Source: Planctomycetota bacterium
Lineage (GTDB): Bacteria; Planctomycetota; Phycisphaerae; Phycisphaerales; UBA5793
Direction: 5' to 3'
NCBI GenBank assembly: GCA_963205185.1
Contig: CAUJHZ010000007.1
Location: forward strand, 124,001 to 188,000
Length of the DNA: 64,000 nucleotides
This document shows, piece after piece, positions 40,055 through 50,947 of the stretch. The translations under genes were made by a program, and so were the position numbers. Every line of letters begins with the position of its first letter. Within the stretch, counting starts at the first letter, position 1. Below the pieces are notes generated by a model. That model saw only the letters and a list, made by a program, of their open reading frames with translations, had not been told where the DNA came from and did no database searches.

Positions 40055-40160
40055 ACGACTCGCGTGGTTTGACTTGCCGCGGCCCAAACGGCATGATTGC
40101 TCTGGTACTCCGAGCTACTCCCATCGGTCGCCGCGCTCCAGGGGCGGCAAAGGTGCGTGC

Positions 40161-41291
40161 ATGACTCATCCGCAAGGGCAAGCCCCCGCTCCACTTGACA
40201 AGGCCGACCGCTGCGCTGATCTCGACCATCGGCCGCGCGTCCTGCTGGGCAAGATGGGGCTCGACGGGCACGACCGCGGCGTGAAACTCATCGCCCGCGC
40301 CATGCGCGACAGCGGCATCCACGTGATCTACTCGGGCCTGTGGCAGACGCCGCGCTCGTTGGCGATCTCAGCGCGCGATGAAGACGCCGACTGCATCGCC
40401 GCGTCGATGATGAGCAACAGCCATCTCGTGCTGGTGCCTCGCCTCGTTGACGAGTGCGCGCAGGTCGGCCGGCCGGACATGATCGTCAACATCGGCGGCA
40501 TCATCCCGCAGGAGGATGTGCAGTCGATGCGCGACGCAGGCGTGAACGAAGTTCATCACACCGGCACGAGCATGGCCGACATCGTCGAATCGGTGCGCCG
40601 CGCGACCCGCCGGCGCGCCGCTCCCGAGACGTATGAACATGCCACCGCAGCGCTGGCTCGCGCGCTGAGTTTCGCGCATGACGGCAGCTGGAAGCCGGCT
40701 GAGAGCGCGATGCGCCGGCCGCCCCGCGTCATCGGCATCACAGGTTCGCCCGGCGCGGGAAAGAGCACGCTGGTCGCCTCGCTTGCCGGCGAATTCGTCC
40801 GCCGCGACCTGGGCCGCCTCGCGGTCGTCGCGTTTGATCCTCAGAGCCCGATCACGCACGGCGCGCTGCTGGGCGATCGCTTGCGCGTCGATTTCAACAA
40901 CCTCGATGAAAGCGTGTTCTATCGCTCGCTGGCGATCACCGGCGAAGACTACGCCACGCTTCCGCTGATCATCGGCCTCATCGGCGCCGCCGGGTTCGAC
41001 ACGCTGCTGGTCGAGACGGTGGGGGCCGGGCAGAATGACGTGGCGATCCGGCAGTTTGTCGATCGCACCGCCGTGGTGCTCGTGCCCGGCATGGGCGATT
41101 CAATCCAGATGGACAAGGCCGGCCTGCTCGAGATCGGCGATCTGTTCGTGTGCAACAAGGCCGACTTCCCCGGCGAGGCGAGCCTCGTGCGCGACCTGCT
41201 CGACATCTCCGAGGGCCGCCCGATCTTCGAAACCATCGCCACCCGCGGCCAGGGCGTCCCCCAACTGCTCGACGGCCTGCTGCGCGGCTGA
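40161..41291 (+). CDS. Cobalamin-binding domain fused to a MeaB/ArgK-type G3E GTPase
   Basis: A 376-residue fusion. Residues about 25-150 are a methylmalonyl-CoA-mutase-type B12-binding domain (MGLDGHDRGVKLI with the cobalt-ligand His37; then GLWQTPRSLAISA). Residues about 185-376 are a MeaB-like GTPase: P-loop GSPGAGKST at 195-203, FDPQSPITHGALLGDRLRVD, VETVGAGQNDV, and VCNKADFP. MeaB proteins guard and reload adenosylcobalamin in acyl-CoA mutases; in IcmF the B12 domain, GTPase and mutase are one chain. Here the mutase catalytic domain is missing and no mutase gene lies nearby. I infer a chaperone-like or small-subunit partner for a separate large subunit. ATG 40161 follows a GGCAAAGG stretch; the frame is open further upstream. 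Confidence 0.88.
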   Translation: MTHPQGQAPAPLDKADRCADLDHRPRVLLGKMGLDGHDRGVKLIARAMRDSGIHVIYSGLWQTPRSLAISARDEDADCIAASMMSNSHLVLVPRLVDECAQVGRPDMIVNIGGIIPQEDVQSMRDAGVNEVHHTGTSMADIVESVRRATRRRAAPETYEHATAALARALSFAHDGSWKPAESAMRRPPRVIGITGSPGAGKSTLVASLAGEFVRRDLGRLAVVAFDPQSPITHGALLGDRLRVDFNNLDESVFYRSLAITGEDYATLPLIIGLIGAAGFDTLLVETVGAGQNDVAIRQFVDRTAVVLVPGMGDSIQMDKAGLLEIGDLFVCNKADFPGEASLVRDLLDISEGRPIFETIATRGQGVPQLLDGLLRG

Positions 41292-41384: not shown

Positions 41385-42410
41385 TTGAGCACCACGGCGC
41401 CGAAATCGGCCCCAGAGGCCATTGCACACAGTGCCGATGAGCGCGAGTTCATCCTCGCCGCGCTCAGGGCCGAATGCGCTGCCATCGAGCACGCGGCGGC
41501 GTCGGTCAGCGAAGAGATCTCCGCGGCGGTCGATCTGCTCGACGCGTGCACCGGCCACGTGGTCGTCACGGGTATGGGCAAAAGCGGCCTGATCGCTCAG
41601 AAGATCAGCGCCACCTTGTCCAGCGTCGGCGTGCCCAGCCACTTCATGCACCCGGCAGAAGCGCTGCACGGCGATCTCGGCCGCGTGCGCGATGGCGACG
41701 CCGTCTGGGCGCTGAGTTACTCGGGCAACACCGAAGAAGTCGTGCAACTCGGCCACGTGCTCCGCTCTGAGGGCCTGCCCATCCTCGCGGTGAGTTCGAA
41801 TCCCGCCAGCCGGCTGGCGCGACTCGCGACGGTGCATCTAAACCTCGGCGACATCTCCGAAGCGTGCCCGCTCAACCTCGCGCCCACGGCCTCCACGACG
41901 GCGATGCTTGCGCTGGGTGATGCGCTCGCCCTGGCGGTGAGTCGCCGGCGGCAGTTCTCCGAAGCCGACTTTCGGCGAAGACACCCCGGCGGGATGCTCG
42001 GCGTGCTGCTCCAGCCCGTCACTGAAGTGCTGCGTTTCAAAGTCGGAGAGAACCTGCCGCTCATCCCCCTTGATGCCACCGTCGGCGCGGCGCTGAAGCG
42101 CGCTGAAGTCGGGCGGCGGCCCGGCGCGATGCTCATCGTGGATGACGCAGGCGCTCTCGCGGGGCTGTTCACCGACGGCGATCTTCGACGCCTTCTGCTT
42201 CGAGACGGAGCGGGCGCGCTCGACCAGCCGATTGCCACCGTCATGACCAGCCGCCCGCGCGTGCTGCGGTGCGACCAGATCGTGCGCGAAGCGGTGGAAC
42301 TCGTGCAGAAGTTCCGCCCGGACGAGATTCCTGTCGTGGATGACGCCGGTCGGCCGATCGGTCTGGTTGATGTGCAGGATCTCATCGCGCAGCGGATCAT
42401 CCAGGAATGA
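41385..42410 (+). CDS. kdsD: D-arabinose-5-phosphate isomerase KdsD/KpsF
   Basis: Interconverts ribulose-5-phosphate and arabinose-5-phosphate, the first step toward Kdo for LPS. The SIS domain (about residues 35-190) has VVVTGMGKSGLIAQK, HPAEALHGDLG and LSYSGNTEEVVQLG, and the catalytic His region FRRRHPGGMLG. Two CBS domains follow (about 205-340). The start is TTG 41385 with GGAG upstream; no ATG fits the family N-terminus. It is followed by kdsC and the LptC/LptA-like gene at 6- and 3-bp gaps, an LPS operon. Confidence 0.94.
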   Translation: MSTTAPKSAPEAIAHSADEREFILAALRAECAAIEHAAASVSEEISAAVDLLDACTGHVVVTGMGKSGLIAQKISATLSSVGVPSHFMHPAEALHGDLGRVRDGDAVWALSYSGNTEEVVQLGHVLRSEGLPILAVSSNPASRLARLATVHLNLGDISEACPLNLAPTASTTAMLALGDALALAVSRRRQFSEADFRRRHPGGMLGVLLQPVTEVLRFKVGENLPLIPLDATVGAALKRAEVGRRPGAMLIVDDAGALAGLFTDGDLRRLLLRDGAGALDQPIATVMTSRPRVLRCDQIVREAVELVQKFRPDEIPVVDDAGRPIGLVDVQDLIAQRIIQE

Positions 42411-42416
42411 CCGATC

Positions 42417-42968
42417 GTGAGCCAGCCGCCCGACCTCCGCGCCATTTCGCTGCTCATTCTCGACGTGGATGGCGTGATGACCGACGGCTCGATCATCATC
42501 GATGACCTCGGGCGCGAAACCAAGGCCTTTCACGTGCGCGATGGTCTGGCGATCCGCGTCTGGCAGATGATGGGCGGCGAAATCGCGTTCATCACCGGGC
42601 GCTCAAGCCAGGTCGTGGCGCTGCGGGCTACGGAACTGAAAGTCCGCCACGTCATGCAGGCGGTGCGCGACAAGAGCGAAGCGCTGCGCCTCGTTCTGGA
42701 GCGCACGGGCCGACAGGCGCACGAGGCCGCGGCGATGGGCGATGACATCGTGGATTTGCCGCTTCTGCGGGCCGTCGGCTATCCTATGGCAGTGGCGGAT
42801 GCCGTCGCCGAGGTCCGGCAGGTCGCGCGGTTCGTGACCGGCCAGCCAGGCGGGCGCGGCGCAGTGCGAGAGGCGGTCGAGCACCTGCTCGGCGCGCAGG
42901 GTCGATGGGATGAAGCGGTGGAGCGCTACGTCCCCTTCGGGCACAAGTCAGGGCACAAGGAGGTCTAG
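42417..42968 (+). CDS. kdsC: 3-deoxy-D-manno-octulosonate 8-phosphate phosphatase KdsC
   Basis: A HAD-family phosphatase that frees Kdo from Kdo-8-phosphate. At 183 residues it has the family length and motifs: LLILDVDGVMTDG (motif I, nucleophile Asp), FITGRSS (motif II), the catalytic Lys region RDKSEAL, and MGDDIVDLPLL (motif III). It starts at GTG 42417, 6 bp after kdsD, and ends 3 bp before the next gene. The other Kdo genes kdsA and kdsB are outside the window. Confidence 0.95.
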   Translation: MSQPPDLRAISLLILDVDGVMTDGSIIIDDLGRETKAFHVRDGLAIRVWQMMGGEIAFITGRSSQVVALRATELKVRHVMQAVRDKSEALRLVLERTGRQAHEAAAMGDDIVDLPLLRAVGYPMAVADAVAEVRQVARFVTGQPGGRGAVREAVEHLLGAQGRWDEAVERYVPFGHKSGHKEV

Positions 42969-42971
42969 CCC

Positions 42972-45900
42972 ATGCGAGCGCGACATGCTGCTCTGGCGGA
43001 TCGACAACTCCTGTTCGTGGGCGCGGCCGGCGTGTGCGGGGCGCTCGTGCTGCTCGTGCTCATCTTCGCCGGCGCTCGCAATCGCACGCCGCAGACGGAT
43101 GGCTCATCGCCGATTTCCCAGGATCTGCTCAACACGCCGATTCCCGATCGCGATCCGGACTCGCGCGTGCGCATCGGCCAGGCTCGTCAGACCTCGGGCG
43201 ATCCGCTGCAGTCGCTTCAGACCGGCCGCGGCGAACTCGAGTTCACCAACGACGACGGCCTGCTGGCCTTTCGGTACCGTTGGGACAGATCCGACCCGCT
43301 CGAAACCGGCTGGAACCGCTTCACCAACCCGCAGGCATGGATCTACCGCTCGGATCGGCAGTTGATCCGCCTGACTTCCGACGAAGGCATGTTCCGCCTG
43401 GCGGAGAACCGTCAGCCGCAGGCGGGCGTTCTGACCGGTCATGTCGTGATCGCCCTGTATCAGTCTGAGAAGCCCGGCGGCGTGTACCAGATCAATCCCG
43501 ATGTCACGCCTCCGGTCGCGCAGTTCGAAACCGATTCGCTCAACTTCGACGCCATGCAGTTCACCGGGCGCACGGAAGATCGGGTGGTGGCGCGCACGGC
43601 CGAAGCCATCATGATCGGCCGCGGCATGAACCTGCTCTTCAATGAGAAGCTGGGCCGGATCGAGGAACTCGAAATCGCCCAGCGCGAACTCATCGTCTAT
43701 CGGCAGCGCGACAGGCAAGAAGAACCTGCCGCGGCGAGCGCCGGATCGAAGACGACTTCGCGCGGTGAGCCGGCGTCCGCGGCGGCAAGCCCCGCCGATC
43801 CGTCGGGCGCGCGGGACCCTTGGGACGGCGTCACGCGGTATCAACTCGCCCTTACCGATGAAGTCATCGTTGAACAGGGCGAAGGCGAAAAGGCGCTGGT
43901 GATCACGGGCCATGACCTGCTTGCCGAGTTTGCCCTGGGTCCGGGCACGGCCAATGACGGCGGGCTGTTCGGCCGCTCGTCGCCGCCCGTCCAAGGCGCC
44001 ATCGACCTGGCGATGCCCAGCGAGCTGGAAGCGCCCGCGGCCTGGGCTGCGAGCGACCGCTGGACGCAACTGGCATCGTTGACGCTGGGGGTGGCGATTC
44101 AGCCGTCTGTGACGTTCCTTGGCAGTTCCGACACGCCGGGACCGCAGGACATCCGCATCACCGGTCAGGGCGCGCTTCGGCTCACTCCTGCGGACGCATC
44201 ATCCGAGCACCTCGCCTCGCCCCGCGACCTCTACGCGACACTGGATGGCGATCCGGTTCACATTGCCTACGGCTCGTTCTACGCGACGGGCTCGGATCTC
44301 GAGTACTCCCGTTCGATGGCCAAGGCGACGTTGAACTGCCGACGCGACCAGCCGATCGAAGCCGGCCTGCCCGACGGGGCGCGGCTCACCTCTGTCGCGC
44401 CGTTCGAGTATCACTTCGACGAGAATAAACTCGGACGCAACACGGGAACCCTCCTGGGCGCGGGCACGCTGGTCGGCCTCACTCCCAGGCCCGACGATGC
44501 GCCGCCCGGGCAGCCCGTGGAGACGGACTTCTCCTCGATGAAAGGTCTTCCCGACGGGTTCTCGGTCAACTGGCTCGACAATTTCACCGTCGAATTCGAG
44601 GGCGCCAGCGAAGGGGCCGGGCTCGGCCGGATCGCCGCCGCGGTCTTTGACGGCCAGGTGCACGTGGACGATCCGAACGGTTACACGCTGGACTCGCACC
44701 AGTTGCGCATCGACTTCAAGGAGAAGCCCAAGGAACAGGGCGGCCAGCGTGTGGACAGCATCACGGCAACGGGAGACGCCCGGCTCCAGTCCGCGCAAGG
44801 CAATGTCAACGGCGATGAACTCTTCGTGCAATTCAGCGAGAACGCCCAGGGCTCGTCGTATCCATCGCAAATGACCGTCGCCGGGAATGGCCGCATCGTG
44901 GATGCAGGCGGCTCGATGGCCGCGCAGTACATCCAGGCCGATCTCATCGAGCCATCGATGGCGGCTGAGGAAGCGCTGCCTTCGACCTTTGGCGGCTCGT
45001 CGTCGTTCGCGGTGAGCGAAGTGCTGGCCCAGGGCAATGTCGTGCTCTCGTTCGAAGACGGCGTGACGGCTCTGGCGGATCGGCTCGAGGCCGATGCGCG
45101 AACCGACACGGCGGTGCTCAGCGGCGAGAACGTGGTGGTGAGCGACCCGTCGCTGAAGGTCATGGGCAAGCACGCCGAGATCAGCAACATCTCCAGCAAG
45201 ACCGCCGGTCGCATCGCGAAGTTCATCGGCGCCGGCACGCTGACGTACTTCGAACGAGGACCTGCCGTTCAAGAAGGTGACCCGGCAAACCGCGCCTTCA
45301 GCACTCCCGAGCAGATGCGCGATGAACTCCGCCGTCGCCTGAATGGAGAGCAGCCCGAGCCTGCCCCCGCGCCGGAGGCGGAGCCGGCATCGCCCGCAGG
45401 CACGCCTGACGCGGCGACGGGCGACGAGGTCGGTACGGTGCATGTTGATTGGGCCGATCAATTGACGTTCGAAGAAGAGCAGGGGCTCATTACCTTCCAG
45501 GGTCTGGTGAACGCGACATCCGAGCCGTCGGACCGCGAGATCGATCGGCTGAGCGGCAACTGGATGCAGATACAGCTCACCGATCCGATCAAGACGGTGA
45601 CCCCCACCGGCGAACCCGGAAAAGCCGTGCGCCGGCTGCAGAAGATGACGATGCTCGGCAGCCGGGATCGGGCGGCCCAGGTCGAGGCGCAGCGCTACAC
45701 CGACGCCACGCACACCAGCCGCGAGATGCTGCTGGCCATCTCGAGCGATGTGATCGAGTACTCGGAGTCAACCGAGACGTTCGAAGCCATCGGCGAGGGC
45801 TGGATGCTCGTGGTGGATGCGAGCGAATCGAAGCCCGCGCCGGTCGATGCCTCGGCGCTGCAAGGCAAGCCGGCGGTGCAGTTCTCCGGCCCAGGCGAGA

Positions 45901-46361
45901 CGGAATTCACCTGGACCGGGCGTCTGTCGATGCGCCGCAATCCCGACCTGCTCACGATCTCCGATGATGTGGTGATGCGGCACCGTCCCACGGGCGAGCC
46001 GGTCATCCGGGTCGATTGCGATGTGCTTACCGCTTCGCTCTCCTCCAAAGACTCGCAATCAGTTTCGGCGCTGGATCTCTCGGGCAGCGACGGCATGGTC
46101 CTGTCCAGCGCCGTGGCCGAGGGCGCCGTCTTCGTGCGCCGCCAGGATCGAAGCATCTGGGCCGATCGCCTGATCTACGACCGCAAGGCGCTGCTCGCCA
46201 CGATCGAGTCCACCGGCGACAACTACGTGGTCATGGAGACATCCGCAACCGGCGGCGCGGTGCAGGCGCGACGAATCCTCTGGGATTTCTACACCAACGG
46301 CATCACCGTGGAAGGCGCTCGCGCTGATGGTCCGATGCCGCCGCTCAACGGGCCCGGCTGA
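42972..46361 (+). CDS. Giant LptC/LptA-like (OstA-domain) protein, 1129 aa
   Basis: The third gene of the kdsD-kdsC operon, where lptC and lptA are normally found. An N-terminal membrane helix (about residues 12-33) is followed by more than 1,000 residues of beta-rich, OstA/LptC-like repeats, for example DSITATGDARLQSAQGNVNG, QMTVAGNGRIVDAGGSM, VLAQGNVVLSFEDGVTALA and AHISRNT-like short strands. Low-complexity Ala/Pro/Glu linkers lie at about residues 255-290 and 795-830. LptC and LptA form a beta-jellyroll bridge that carries LPS across the periplasm; a single polypeptide with many such domains may form this bridge alone. LptB, the ATPase, is not next to it. It abuts nuoC, which is on the other strand. 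The LptC/LptA assignment rests on context and repeat pattern. Confidence 0.7.
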   Translation: MRARHAALADRQLLFVGAAGVCGALVLLVLIFAGARNRTPQTDGSSPISQDLLNTPIPDRDPDSRVRIGQARQTSGDPLQSLQTGRGELEFTNDDGLLAFRYRWDRSDPLETGWNRFTNPQAWIYRSDRQLIRLTSDEGMFRLAENRQPQAGVLTGHVVIALYQSEKPGGVYQINPDVTPPVAQFETDSLNFDAMQFTGRTEDRVVARTAEAIMIGRGMNLLFNEKLGRIEELEIAQRELIVYRQRDRQEEPAAASAGSKTTSRGEPASAAASPADPSGARDPWDGVTRYQLALTDEVIVEQGEGEKALVITGHDLLAEFALGPGTANDGGLFGRSSPPVQGAIDLAMPSELEAPAAWAASDRWTQLASLTLGVAIQPSVTFLGSSDTPGPQDIRITGQGALRLTPADASSEHLASPRDLYATLDGDPVHIAYGSFYATGSDLEYSRSMAKATLNCRRDQPIEAGLPDGARLTSVAPFEYHFDENKLGRNTGTLLGAGTLVGLTPRPDDAPPGQPVETDFSSMKGLPDGFSVNWLDNFTVEFEGASEGAGLGRIAAAVFDGQVHVDDPNGYTLDSHQLRIDFKEKPKEQGGQRVDSITATGDARLQSAQGNVNGDELFVQFSENAQGSSYPSQMTVAGNGRIVDAGGSMAAQYIQADLIEPSMAAEEALPSTFGGSSSFAVSEVLAQGNVVLSFEDGVTALADRLEADARTDTAVLSGENVVVSDPSLKVMGKHAEISNISSKTAGRIAKFIGAGTLTYFERGPAVQEGDPANRAFSTPEQMRDELRRRLNGEQPEPAPAPEAEPASPAGTPDAATGDEVGTVHVDWADQLTFEEEQGLITFQGLVNATSEPSDREIDRLSGNWMQIQLTDPIKTVTPTGEPGKAVRRLQKMTMLGSRDRAAQVEAQRYTDATHTSREMLLAISSDVIEYSESTETFEAIGEGWMLVVDASESKPAPVDASALQGKPAVQFSGPGETEFTWTGRLSMRRNPDLLTISDDVVMRHRPTGEPVIRVDCDVLTASLSSKDSQSVSALDLSGSDGMVLSSAVAEGAVFVRRQDRSIWADRLIYDRKALLATIESTGDNYVVMETSATGGAVQARRILWDFYTNGITVEGARADGPMPPLNGPG

Positions 46362-46916
46362 TCAGGCGTCTTCGCGCTGCACCACGTTGTACATCTCGCG
46401 TTCGCCTCGGCCGCGAAGGGGATAGTCCTTGCGGAGCGGGAACGCGGGGTAATCGCGCCACAGCAGAATCCGGCGCAGGTCGGGATGGTTGGCGAAGCGA
46501 ATGCCGAACATGTCATAGACTTCGCGCTCCGGCCACTCCGCCCCAGGCCAGAGATCCGTCACCGAGTCGATCTCCAGAGCTGGATCATTCGCGTTGCCGG
46601 TCGTGTCGCCGGATGGATCGAGATACGCCTTGACGATCAATCGGCGGTTGAAGTGAGTGCTGACGAGGACGTAGATCACGGCGAAGCGGCCGGGTGTGGG
46701 CGCCGGATAGTTGAGGTAATCCACCGCGGTGACATCTGAGAGAAAGTCATAGCGGCATTGCTCATCGTCGCGCAGGAATGCCATGACGCGGTGGAGCATG
46801 CGCGGCGGCGCGATCACGGCAGTCTGACCGCGGAACTCGGTCGCTTTGAGCCCCGATTGGGCGAACTCCGCTTTCAGCCGGGGCAGGGTGAGATGGTCGA
46901 GAGTGGGTTTGGGCAT
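46362..46916 (-). CDS. nuoC: NADH-quinone oxidoreductase subunit C
   Basis: A 184-residue subunit of the peripheral arm of respiratory complex I. Diagnostic segments are YDFLSDVTAVDYL, VYVLVSTHF-like strands (VIYVLVSTHFNRRLIVKAYL), the signature DSVTDLWPGAEWPEREVYDM followed by FGIRF, and HPDLRRILLWRDYP...PLRKDYPLRGRGE. The other 12 or so nuo genes usually flank it; none is present here, so complex I genes appear scattered in this genome. Start is ATG 46916. Confidence 0.93.
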   Translation of the reverse strand: MPKPTLDHLTLPRLKAEFAQSGLKATEFRGQTAVIAPPRMLHRVMAFLRDDEQCRYDFLSDVTAVDYLNYPAPTPGRFAVIYVLVSTHFNRRLIVKAYLDPSGDTTGNANDPALEIDSVTDLWPGAEWPEREVYDMFGIRFANHPDLRRILLWRDYPAFPLRKDYPLRGRGEREMYNVVQREDA

Positions 46917-49485: not shown

Positions 49486-50499
49486 TCAGGACTTCTCGGG
49501 GTTCTGCCCGCCGCCGCCGATGGCCGAGCGCATCTGCGTGTCGGCCTGGATGTTGCGCATGCGGTAGTAATCCATGATGCCGAGATTGCCGCCGCGGAAC
49601 GCCTCGGCCATGGCGCGGGGCACTTCGGCCTCGGCTTCCACGACCTTGGCGCGGTTCAGTTCGATCAATGCGCGATTCTCGGCTTCCTGCGCGCGAGCCA
49701 TCGCGGCCCGCTTTTCGGCCTCAGCCTGGAACCGCTTCTTGTCCGCCTCGGCCTGGTCGGCCTGGAGTTTGGCGCCGATATTGTCGCCGACGTCCACATC
49801 CGCGATGTCGATGGAGAGAATCTCGAACGCCGTGCCTGAGTCGAGCCCCTTCTTGAGCACCGTCTTGCTGATGTTGTCGGGATTGGCGAGCACTTCCTTG
49901 TGCGTGTTGGCCGAGCCGATGGTGGTGACGATGCCTTCGCCAACGCGGGCGATGATGGTCTCTTCGAGCGCACCGCCGACGAGCCGGGCCAGATTGGCGC
50001 GGACCGTGATGCGGGCCTTGACCTTGAGTTGAATGCCATCCTGGGCGACGGCATCGATGGTGCTGCGGCCGCGCGATGCGTCGGGGCAGTCGATCACCTT
50101 GGGCTTTACGGAAGTCTGCACCGCGTCAAAAATGTCGCGGCCAGCGAGGTCGATGGCGCATGCGGTGTTGAATCCGAGGTCGATCTTCGCCCGGTCCGCT
50201 GCAATGAGCGCACGGATGACCAGTGGTACGCGGCCGCCGGCCAGGTAGTGCGTCTCGAGTTCCTTGGTCGTGACGTTGAGTCCCGCCTTCACCGCCTGGA
50301 TGCGATTGAGCACGATGATGCGCGGGTCGACCTTGCGGAACTTCATCCCCACGAGGTCGATGAACGACACGCTGGCGCCCGAGAGAAACGCCTGGAACCA
50401 AAGATTGAAGAACTGGCCGATGATCACCAGCACGACGATCGTGAAAATTACTACGACGCCGATGACCACCCAGAAGATCACGTCTGATGGGTTACCCAT
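49486..50499 (-). CDS. floA: Flotillin-like protein FloA
   Basis: A membrane-scaffold protein of the FloA (YqfA) family, 337 residues, which organises functional membrane microdomains in bacteria. A membrane hairpin/helix (about residues 7-30) precedes [20 protein letters not shown], the SPFH-like domain with [16 protein letters not shown], and a coiled coil of Ala/Glu repeats (about 240-300, [20 protein letters not shown]). Length and order match FloA. The operon NfeD, short NfeD, truncated FloA and FloA reads toward it; the truncated paralogue ends 4 bp before its start. Confidence 0.93.
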
Positions 50500-50503
50500 T
50501 CGT

Positions 50504-50947
50504 TCAGATCATCCTTTCTTCAACTGCACTCAGCGCCGGTGTATCCAGCCCAGCGCTGCGGATCGAACTCTGCACGGCCTCGCAGACATCCTGCCCCGCC
50601 AGGTCCATCTCGCAGGCGGTATCGTAGTCGAGATCCAACCCCGCCCGCTGGGCCATGATCAGCGCTCGGACCACCAGCGGCACCCGCCCGCGGGCGAGGT
50701 GGTGTGCTTCGAGTTGCTCCGTCGAGATCTCCACTCCCGCCTTGACGGCGAGGATCCGATTCAGCACGATGAGGCGAGGATCGACGCCCCGAAAGCGCAT
50801 ACGCACCAGCCGCACCATCGACACCGGCACACCGCACAGAAATGCCTGAAACCACAGGTTGAAATACGCGCCGATGACGAGCAGCGAGACCACCGCGACC
50901 ACCAGGGCCACGCCCAGCGCCAGGTATGACATCAGCAGCCATGGCAT
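50504..50947 (-). CDS. Truncated FloA paralogue, 147 aa
   Basis: This protein matches the first 137 residues or so of the FloA protein encoded right after it ([80 protein letters not shown]) and then stops, ending in SAVEERMI. It keeps the membrane anchor and the first part of the FloA fold but lacks the rest of the SPFH domain and the coiled coil. Codon use and length look normal, so it may be a real short gene and not a fragment of a frameshifted copy. I infer a partial tandem duplication. It could modulate FloA assembly. Confidence 0.75.

Follow-up and report, generated by a model that had tools for sequence, protein, structure and literature searches.

A long gene behind kdsD-kdsC in a planctomycete genome probably encodes a fused LptC-(LptA)n lipopolysaccharide bridge

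Introduction

In Escherichia coli, the genes kdsD and kdsC are followed by lptC (191 aa) and lptA (185 aa), and then by lptB and rpoN. The copy number of LptA in the bridge is, according to a review, unknown (PMC10094684). For planctomycetes, one survey covers LptD only (PMC3422733), and another calls the Lpt system of Planctomycetes 'largely reduced' (PMC8871954). The elongated MlaD of Veillonella parvula, one long chain that takes the place of shuttle or bridge parts and is proposed to cross the envelope, may be regarded as the nearest conceptual precedent for a bridge made of a single protein (PMC10665443). The analogy is one of logic only; this MlaD belongs to an MCE/phospholipid system with an outer-membrane barrel and is not homologous to the protein described here. 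No description of an LptC-LptA fusion or of a tandem LptA bridge was found in the literature searched, which was mostly open-access and included few preprints.

The stretch of planctomycete DNA analysed in this study (64,000 nucleotides, hereafter the window) carries a 1129-codon gene behind kdsD and kdsC. Judged from its sequence relationships, the product of this gene is very probably a fused LptC-(LptA)n bridge. The Lpt system itself is well known, and such a fused bridge is a variant of it. The window gene shares with E. coli LptC and LptA the genomic site, the N-terminal membrane helix and the order of LptC followed by LptA sequence. Whereas E. coli makes two short proteins, however, the window gene specifies one 1129-aa chain with several LptA units, the number of which is set by the gene, and lptB and rpoN are not adjacent to it.

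Results

A conserved 1129-codon gene at the site of lptC and lptA

The gene (42972-46361, + strand) is supported by its open reading frame, an orthologue, a family profile, profile-profile alignments (hhalign) and internal repeats. It begins with ATG 3 nt after the kdsC stop at 42968, and a Shine-Dalgarno motif, AAGGAGG (42957-42963, +), lies within the end of kdsC, 8 nt before the start codon. Upstream, kdsD (41385-42410, +) encodes an arabinose-5-phosphate isomerase with SIS and CBS domains recognized by Pfam (TIGR00393, 252.5 bits), and kdsC (42417-42968, +) encodes a KDO-8-phosphate phosphatase (TIGR01670, 151.7 bits), both scores being above the TIGRFAM cut-offs. The locus behind kdsD/kdsC is thus that of an Lpt gene, and the original prediction that one long protein occupies the site of lptC and lptA is borne out.

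An orthologue from Phycisphaerales bacterium UBA5793 (locus L007; Planctomycetota, class Phycisphaerae) is 65-68% identical across its full length. Between the two genes dN is 0.24 and dS is 1.46, indicating that the entire 1129-codon frame is under purifying selection. With a full-length orthologue, dN far below dS and class-wide relatives of 939-1256 aa, the long frame is no accident, and the gene, with its start codon and ribosome-binding site, is real as first proposed.

Homology to LptC and LptA

In direct searches, the window protein matched Lpt families below their cut-offs, namely PF03968 (LptA/LptD_N) at residues 1046-1097 (19.7 bits, just under the cut-off of 20.4), PF06835 (LptC) at residues 116-224 (16.2 bits; cut-off 21), TIGR04409 (LptC) at the same residues (22.4 bits; cut-off 38), and TIGR03002 (LptA) at residues 701-764. 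This low direct similarity to any family would suit a long, beta-rich protein, secreted or on the cell surface, that is unrelated to Lpt and lies behind kdsC by chance, a reading that we consider extremely improbable in view of the profile matches, which are exclusively to Lpt proteins, and of the synteny kept across classes.

For the family alignment, 39 full-length members of the own class were used, including the window protein. When these were scanned one by one, LptD_N/LptA was found in 24 (best E 1.9e-16) and LptC in 13 at E 0.01 (best E 6.8e-9); no other Pfam family was found among the 39. A PDB search with the family profile returned solely Lpt chains (LptA, LptD and LptH, with LptC at the N-terminus), the best match being LptA 8onu (E 2.9e-6). 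In hhalign, the profile aligned co-linearly with E. coli LptC at residues 90-234, with the N-terminal domain of LptD at 551-612 and with LptA at 631-751, and the LptD N-domain of the own genome aligned to residues 975-1079, with P values for the four between 1.3e-4 and 5.4e-4. Twenty-odd decoys, among them TamA, TamB, KdsD, KdsC, LptB, reversed LptA, LptC and LptD-N, and shuffled sequences, gave no match, all with P > 0.05. The weak Pfam and NCBIfam matches behind the earlier label 'LptC/LptA-like' thus become clear with the family profile, and by sequence the window protein is LptC-like first and LptA-like thereafter.

The decoys also bear on a TamB/AsmA-like phospholipid bridge outside the Lpt system. 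TamB is anchored in the inner membrane and has a hydrophobic beta groove (PMC5719984), and TamB and YhdP (AsmA-like) share with the window protein a similar length, an inner-membrane anchor and a proposed hydrophobic groove; E. coli TamB, at 1259 aa, is comparable in both size and anchor. No sequence relation to TamB, the one of the two compared directly, or to AsmA-type Pfam families was detected, however. E. coli TamB gave P 0.35 in hhalign, at the level of the decoys, and on this value the candidate was rejected; an AsmA/TamB Pfam match occurred in 0 of the 39 members, and the gene accompanies kdsC/kdsD and, at two loci, also lptD. A TamB-like identity is therefore highly improbable.

Domain layout and tandem repeats

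A hydrophobic segment at residues ~13-34 (43008-43073, +), with an equivalent in class relatives, forms the N-terminal anchor that had been proposed and is predicted to be a single transmembrane helix like that of LptC. The LptC-like domain follows at residues ~88-234 (43233-43673, +; hhalign with E. coli LptC, P 1.6e-4; PF06835 match). It is succeeded by an Ala/Ser/Pro-rich linker at residues ~246-283 (43707-43820, +), which varies among orthologues, and by a poorly assigned middle region at residues ~284-420 (43821-44231, +), with short likeness to later repeats alone (probability 53-57%).

To describe the remainder, the family profile was cut into segments that were compared pairwise with reversed segments as controls; matches of adjacent segments across their common overlap are trivial and were left out of the repeat evidence. 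Residues ~420-1129 were found to consist of tandem copies of one ~155-residue unit, with P 2.9e-12 for segment 665-860 against 820-1000, 2.7e-14 for 820-1000 against 965-1129, and 1.4e-11 for 400-560 against 665-860; in these comparisons, reversed controls reached probabilities of at most ~2%. The first part of this region, residues ~421-679 (44232-45008, +), holds one or two LptA-like units, with P values of 1e-7 to 1e-11 for its 400-560 segment against the units that come later, and with the LptD-N and LptA alignments falling here. The next LptA-like unit, residues ~680-835 (45009-45476, +), is supported by its match to the following unit, by a unit HMM (680-854) and by the TIGR03002 match, and contains a Pro/Ala/Glu-rich loop at residues ~790-822 (45339-45437, +), where relatives have insertions at the equivalent position of the unit. 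The unit at residues ~836-989 (45477-45938, +) is defined by its match to the last one, the C-terminal unit at residues ~990-1129 (45939-46358, +), which bears the PF03968 match, a unit HMM match (1044-1116) and the alignment to the LptD N-domain of the own genome. From the repeat register, a period of ~155 residues and an estimated count of ~5 LptA-sized units beyond the LptC-like domain are obtained. The LptC-like segment 84-245 gave no convincing match to the repeats, some reversed controls scoring equally high, and is therefore held separate.

Unlike LptA, which is a free, short, soluble periplasmic protein with a signal peptide, these units lie within an anchored 1129-aa chain. The chain might be processed in the periplasm, releasing LptC and a number of free LptA pieces for a classical multi-subunit bridge, and cleavage could fall in the long Ala/Pro linkers of low complexity (residues ~246-283 and ~790-822); the units past residue 420 are, however, directly contiguous, and such cleavage is very unlikely.

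Distribution of the fused gene in Planctomycetota

Of 248 genomes of the own class, 62 yielded relatives in a single-sequence search; relatives in the class are 939-1256 aa long and nearly all have a hydrophobic anchor at the start. With the profile, 211 of 343 genomes drawn from the phylum were matched, including 30 of 30 from the own class. Other planctomycete classes have versions of 656-1161 aa behind kdsC or kdsD. When loci were picked by the protein alone, neighbours being ignored, kdsC or kdsD lay directly upstream at 33 of 40 loci of the own class and at 18 of 19 from other classes, and lptD was immediately 3' of the fused gene at two loci (L134 and L137).

One relative from another class of the phylum (locus L151, genome G563), a 668-aa protein that adjoins kdsC downstream, contains one PF06835 domain, which scores 46.5 bits against a cut-off of 21, and three PF03968 domains, at 115 bits against 20.4; the window-family profile matches it at E 1.7e-49. 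This protein, which exceeds the curated cut-offs, allows the long proteins to be grouped with LptC and LptA, even though the window protein by itself stays below those cut-offs. The number of repeats varies by lineage, from ~2-3 LptA units in forms of ~660 aa to at least 5 in forms of 1000-1250 aa.

A small number of families in the phylum have short frames the size of LptA (about 169-250 aa). Genome G323 encodes a ~343-aa LptC+LptA protein behind kdsC (L144, 4933-5964) together with a separate ~197-aa LptA (L143, 5719-6312). The short frames and the split arrangement in G323 indicate that the fusion, though common in the phylum, does not occur throughout it. Split and multi-unit forms are linked by a graded series. 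In genome G355, a ~350-aa LptC+LptA protein was also seen behind kdsC (L153, 5633-6712), and the ~350-aa forms of G323 and G355 may be transitional from one type of bridge, split or fused, to the other. A canonical kdsD-lptC-lptA-lptB-rpoN-hpf-ptsN locus (L150, contig C37 of genome G264) is inferred to be proteobacterial contamination of the metagenome bin, probably, and was not used.

The rest of the Lpt machine

The own genome, with a size of 4.55 Mb and a completeness of 97.4%, carries lptB, lptF, lptG, lpxC and a probable lptD on other contigs, so that the partners and the LPS pathway expected of an Lpt system are present, with LptD borderline. LptB scored 311.6 bits, above its cut-off, and LpxC 299.9 bits. 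LptF and LptG are encoded by two genes; an LptF-LptG fusion (one 1157-aa open frame) was rejected, the two genes being in frame with a TGA between them. The probable LptD (L079, 6996-10040, - strand; 1014 aa) has a barrel match of 22.5 bits against a cut-off of 22.4, gave no match at E 0.001 in a second Pfam scan, and has an N-domain that is matched by the family profile. The N-terminal domain of LptD belongs to the same LptA/LptD_N family (PF03968) as the window protein; LptD has an outer-membrane barrel, however, whereas the window chain has none. About 400 residues precede the barrel in the L079 protein, apparently more than in E. coli LptD, and perhaps hold two LptA-like units.

The sole PF06835 match and the sole PF03968 match in the genome, both below cut-off, are in the 1129-aa gene, and no separate LptC or LptA was found with PF06835, PF03968 or the family profile. 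At 97.4% completeness, a short gene of its own for either protein may fall within the portion not recovered, or may have diverged too far to be detected. Further matches of the profile in this genome were the LptD N-domain, one at E 0.18, and an esterase-like frame (L087) with a hydrophobic N-terminus, which matched weakly and was rejected as an Lpt relative. The checks originally proposed, a genome search for LptB, LptF, LptG and LptD and one for a normal lptC or lptA elsewhere, accordingly favour the fused reading in so far as these models and the profile detect, the first three components being present and LptD probable.

These searches also bear on whether the window protein is only part of a bridge, as a long-armed LptC needing a separate LptA or more copies of itself. 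The arrangement in G323, with an LptC+LptA protein beside a separate LptA, lends this some plausibility, as do structural models of low confidence (see below), which leave the real length of the chain unfixed. Against it, neither PF03968 nor the family profile detects a separate LptA in the own genome, and ~5 LptA-sized units are already in the chain. We consider a partial bridge unlikely.

Fold and length

AlphaFold2 gave no confident fold for the window protein with one orthologue (pLDDT 29.1) or for the LptC-like fragment alone (pLDDT 32.4). Given these values, it is from homology that we infer a beta-jellyroll groove in the 1129-aa protein.

An LptA unit of E. coli is ~4 nm long. If the units of the window protein resemble it, the chain would measure ~20-25 nm, a usual span for the periplasm of Gram-negative bacteria. 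It had been suggested that the protein may be long enough to cross an unusually wide planctomycete periplasm. A link between its length and such a width is not supported by the estimate, and relatives down to 656 aa in length occur in the phylum. The planctomycete periplasm is reported to be variable, with invaginations that enlarge it in places (PMC5394234), and no constant wide gap was found.

Discussion

A model of the fused LptC-(LptA)n bridge can be proposed from these sequence relationships. The N-terminal helix, like that of LptC, would sit next to LptB2FG and anchor the protein in the inner membrane, and the LptC-like domain would take LPS from LptF. The ~5 LptA-like units would prolong the hydrophobic groove over the periplasm as far as the LptD N-domain, so that LPS could pass in single file along one covalent groove. 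As in E. coli, ATP hydrolysis would drive this movement. Such a chain would dispense with LptC-LptA and LptA-LptA docking. Transport of LPS, the contacts with LptF and LptD, and the formation of the whole bridge by one chain are thus predicted.

If so, the 'largely reduced' listing of Planctomycetes (PMC8871954) could be explained by an LptC and an LptA that exist but are fused and diverged. A natural fusion also writes the LptA number into the gene, where it can be read, and tested by adding or removing units. Because repeat number varies among lineages, bridge length might be set directly against periplasm width. Whether the whole LPS bridge of Planctomycetota is one gene-encoded chain of fixed length, acting as a molecular ruler of the distance between the membranes, we regard as evenly balanced.

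Other genes in the neighbourhood

Immediately 3' of the fused gene lies a convergent nuoC-like gene (46362-46916, - strand). The genome seemingly contains two genes of this type (complex I, 30 kDa), the other (L089, 7919-8470, +) being near lptB; Pfam confirmation was obtained for the window copy only. Upstream of kdsD, a 405-aa protein (40074-41291, +) consists of a B12-binding domain fused to a MeaB GTPase, without the mutase catalytic domain. Farther downstream, a 147-aa frame (50504-50947, -) matches positions 1-135 only of FloA, as a partial duplicate, and adjoins a longer FloA-like frame (49486-50499, -).
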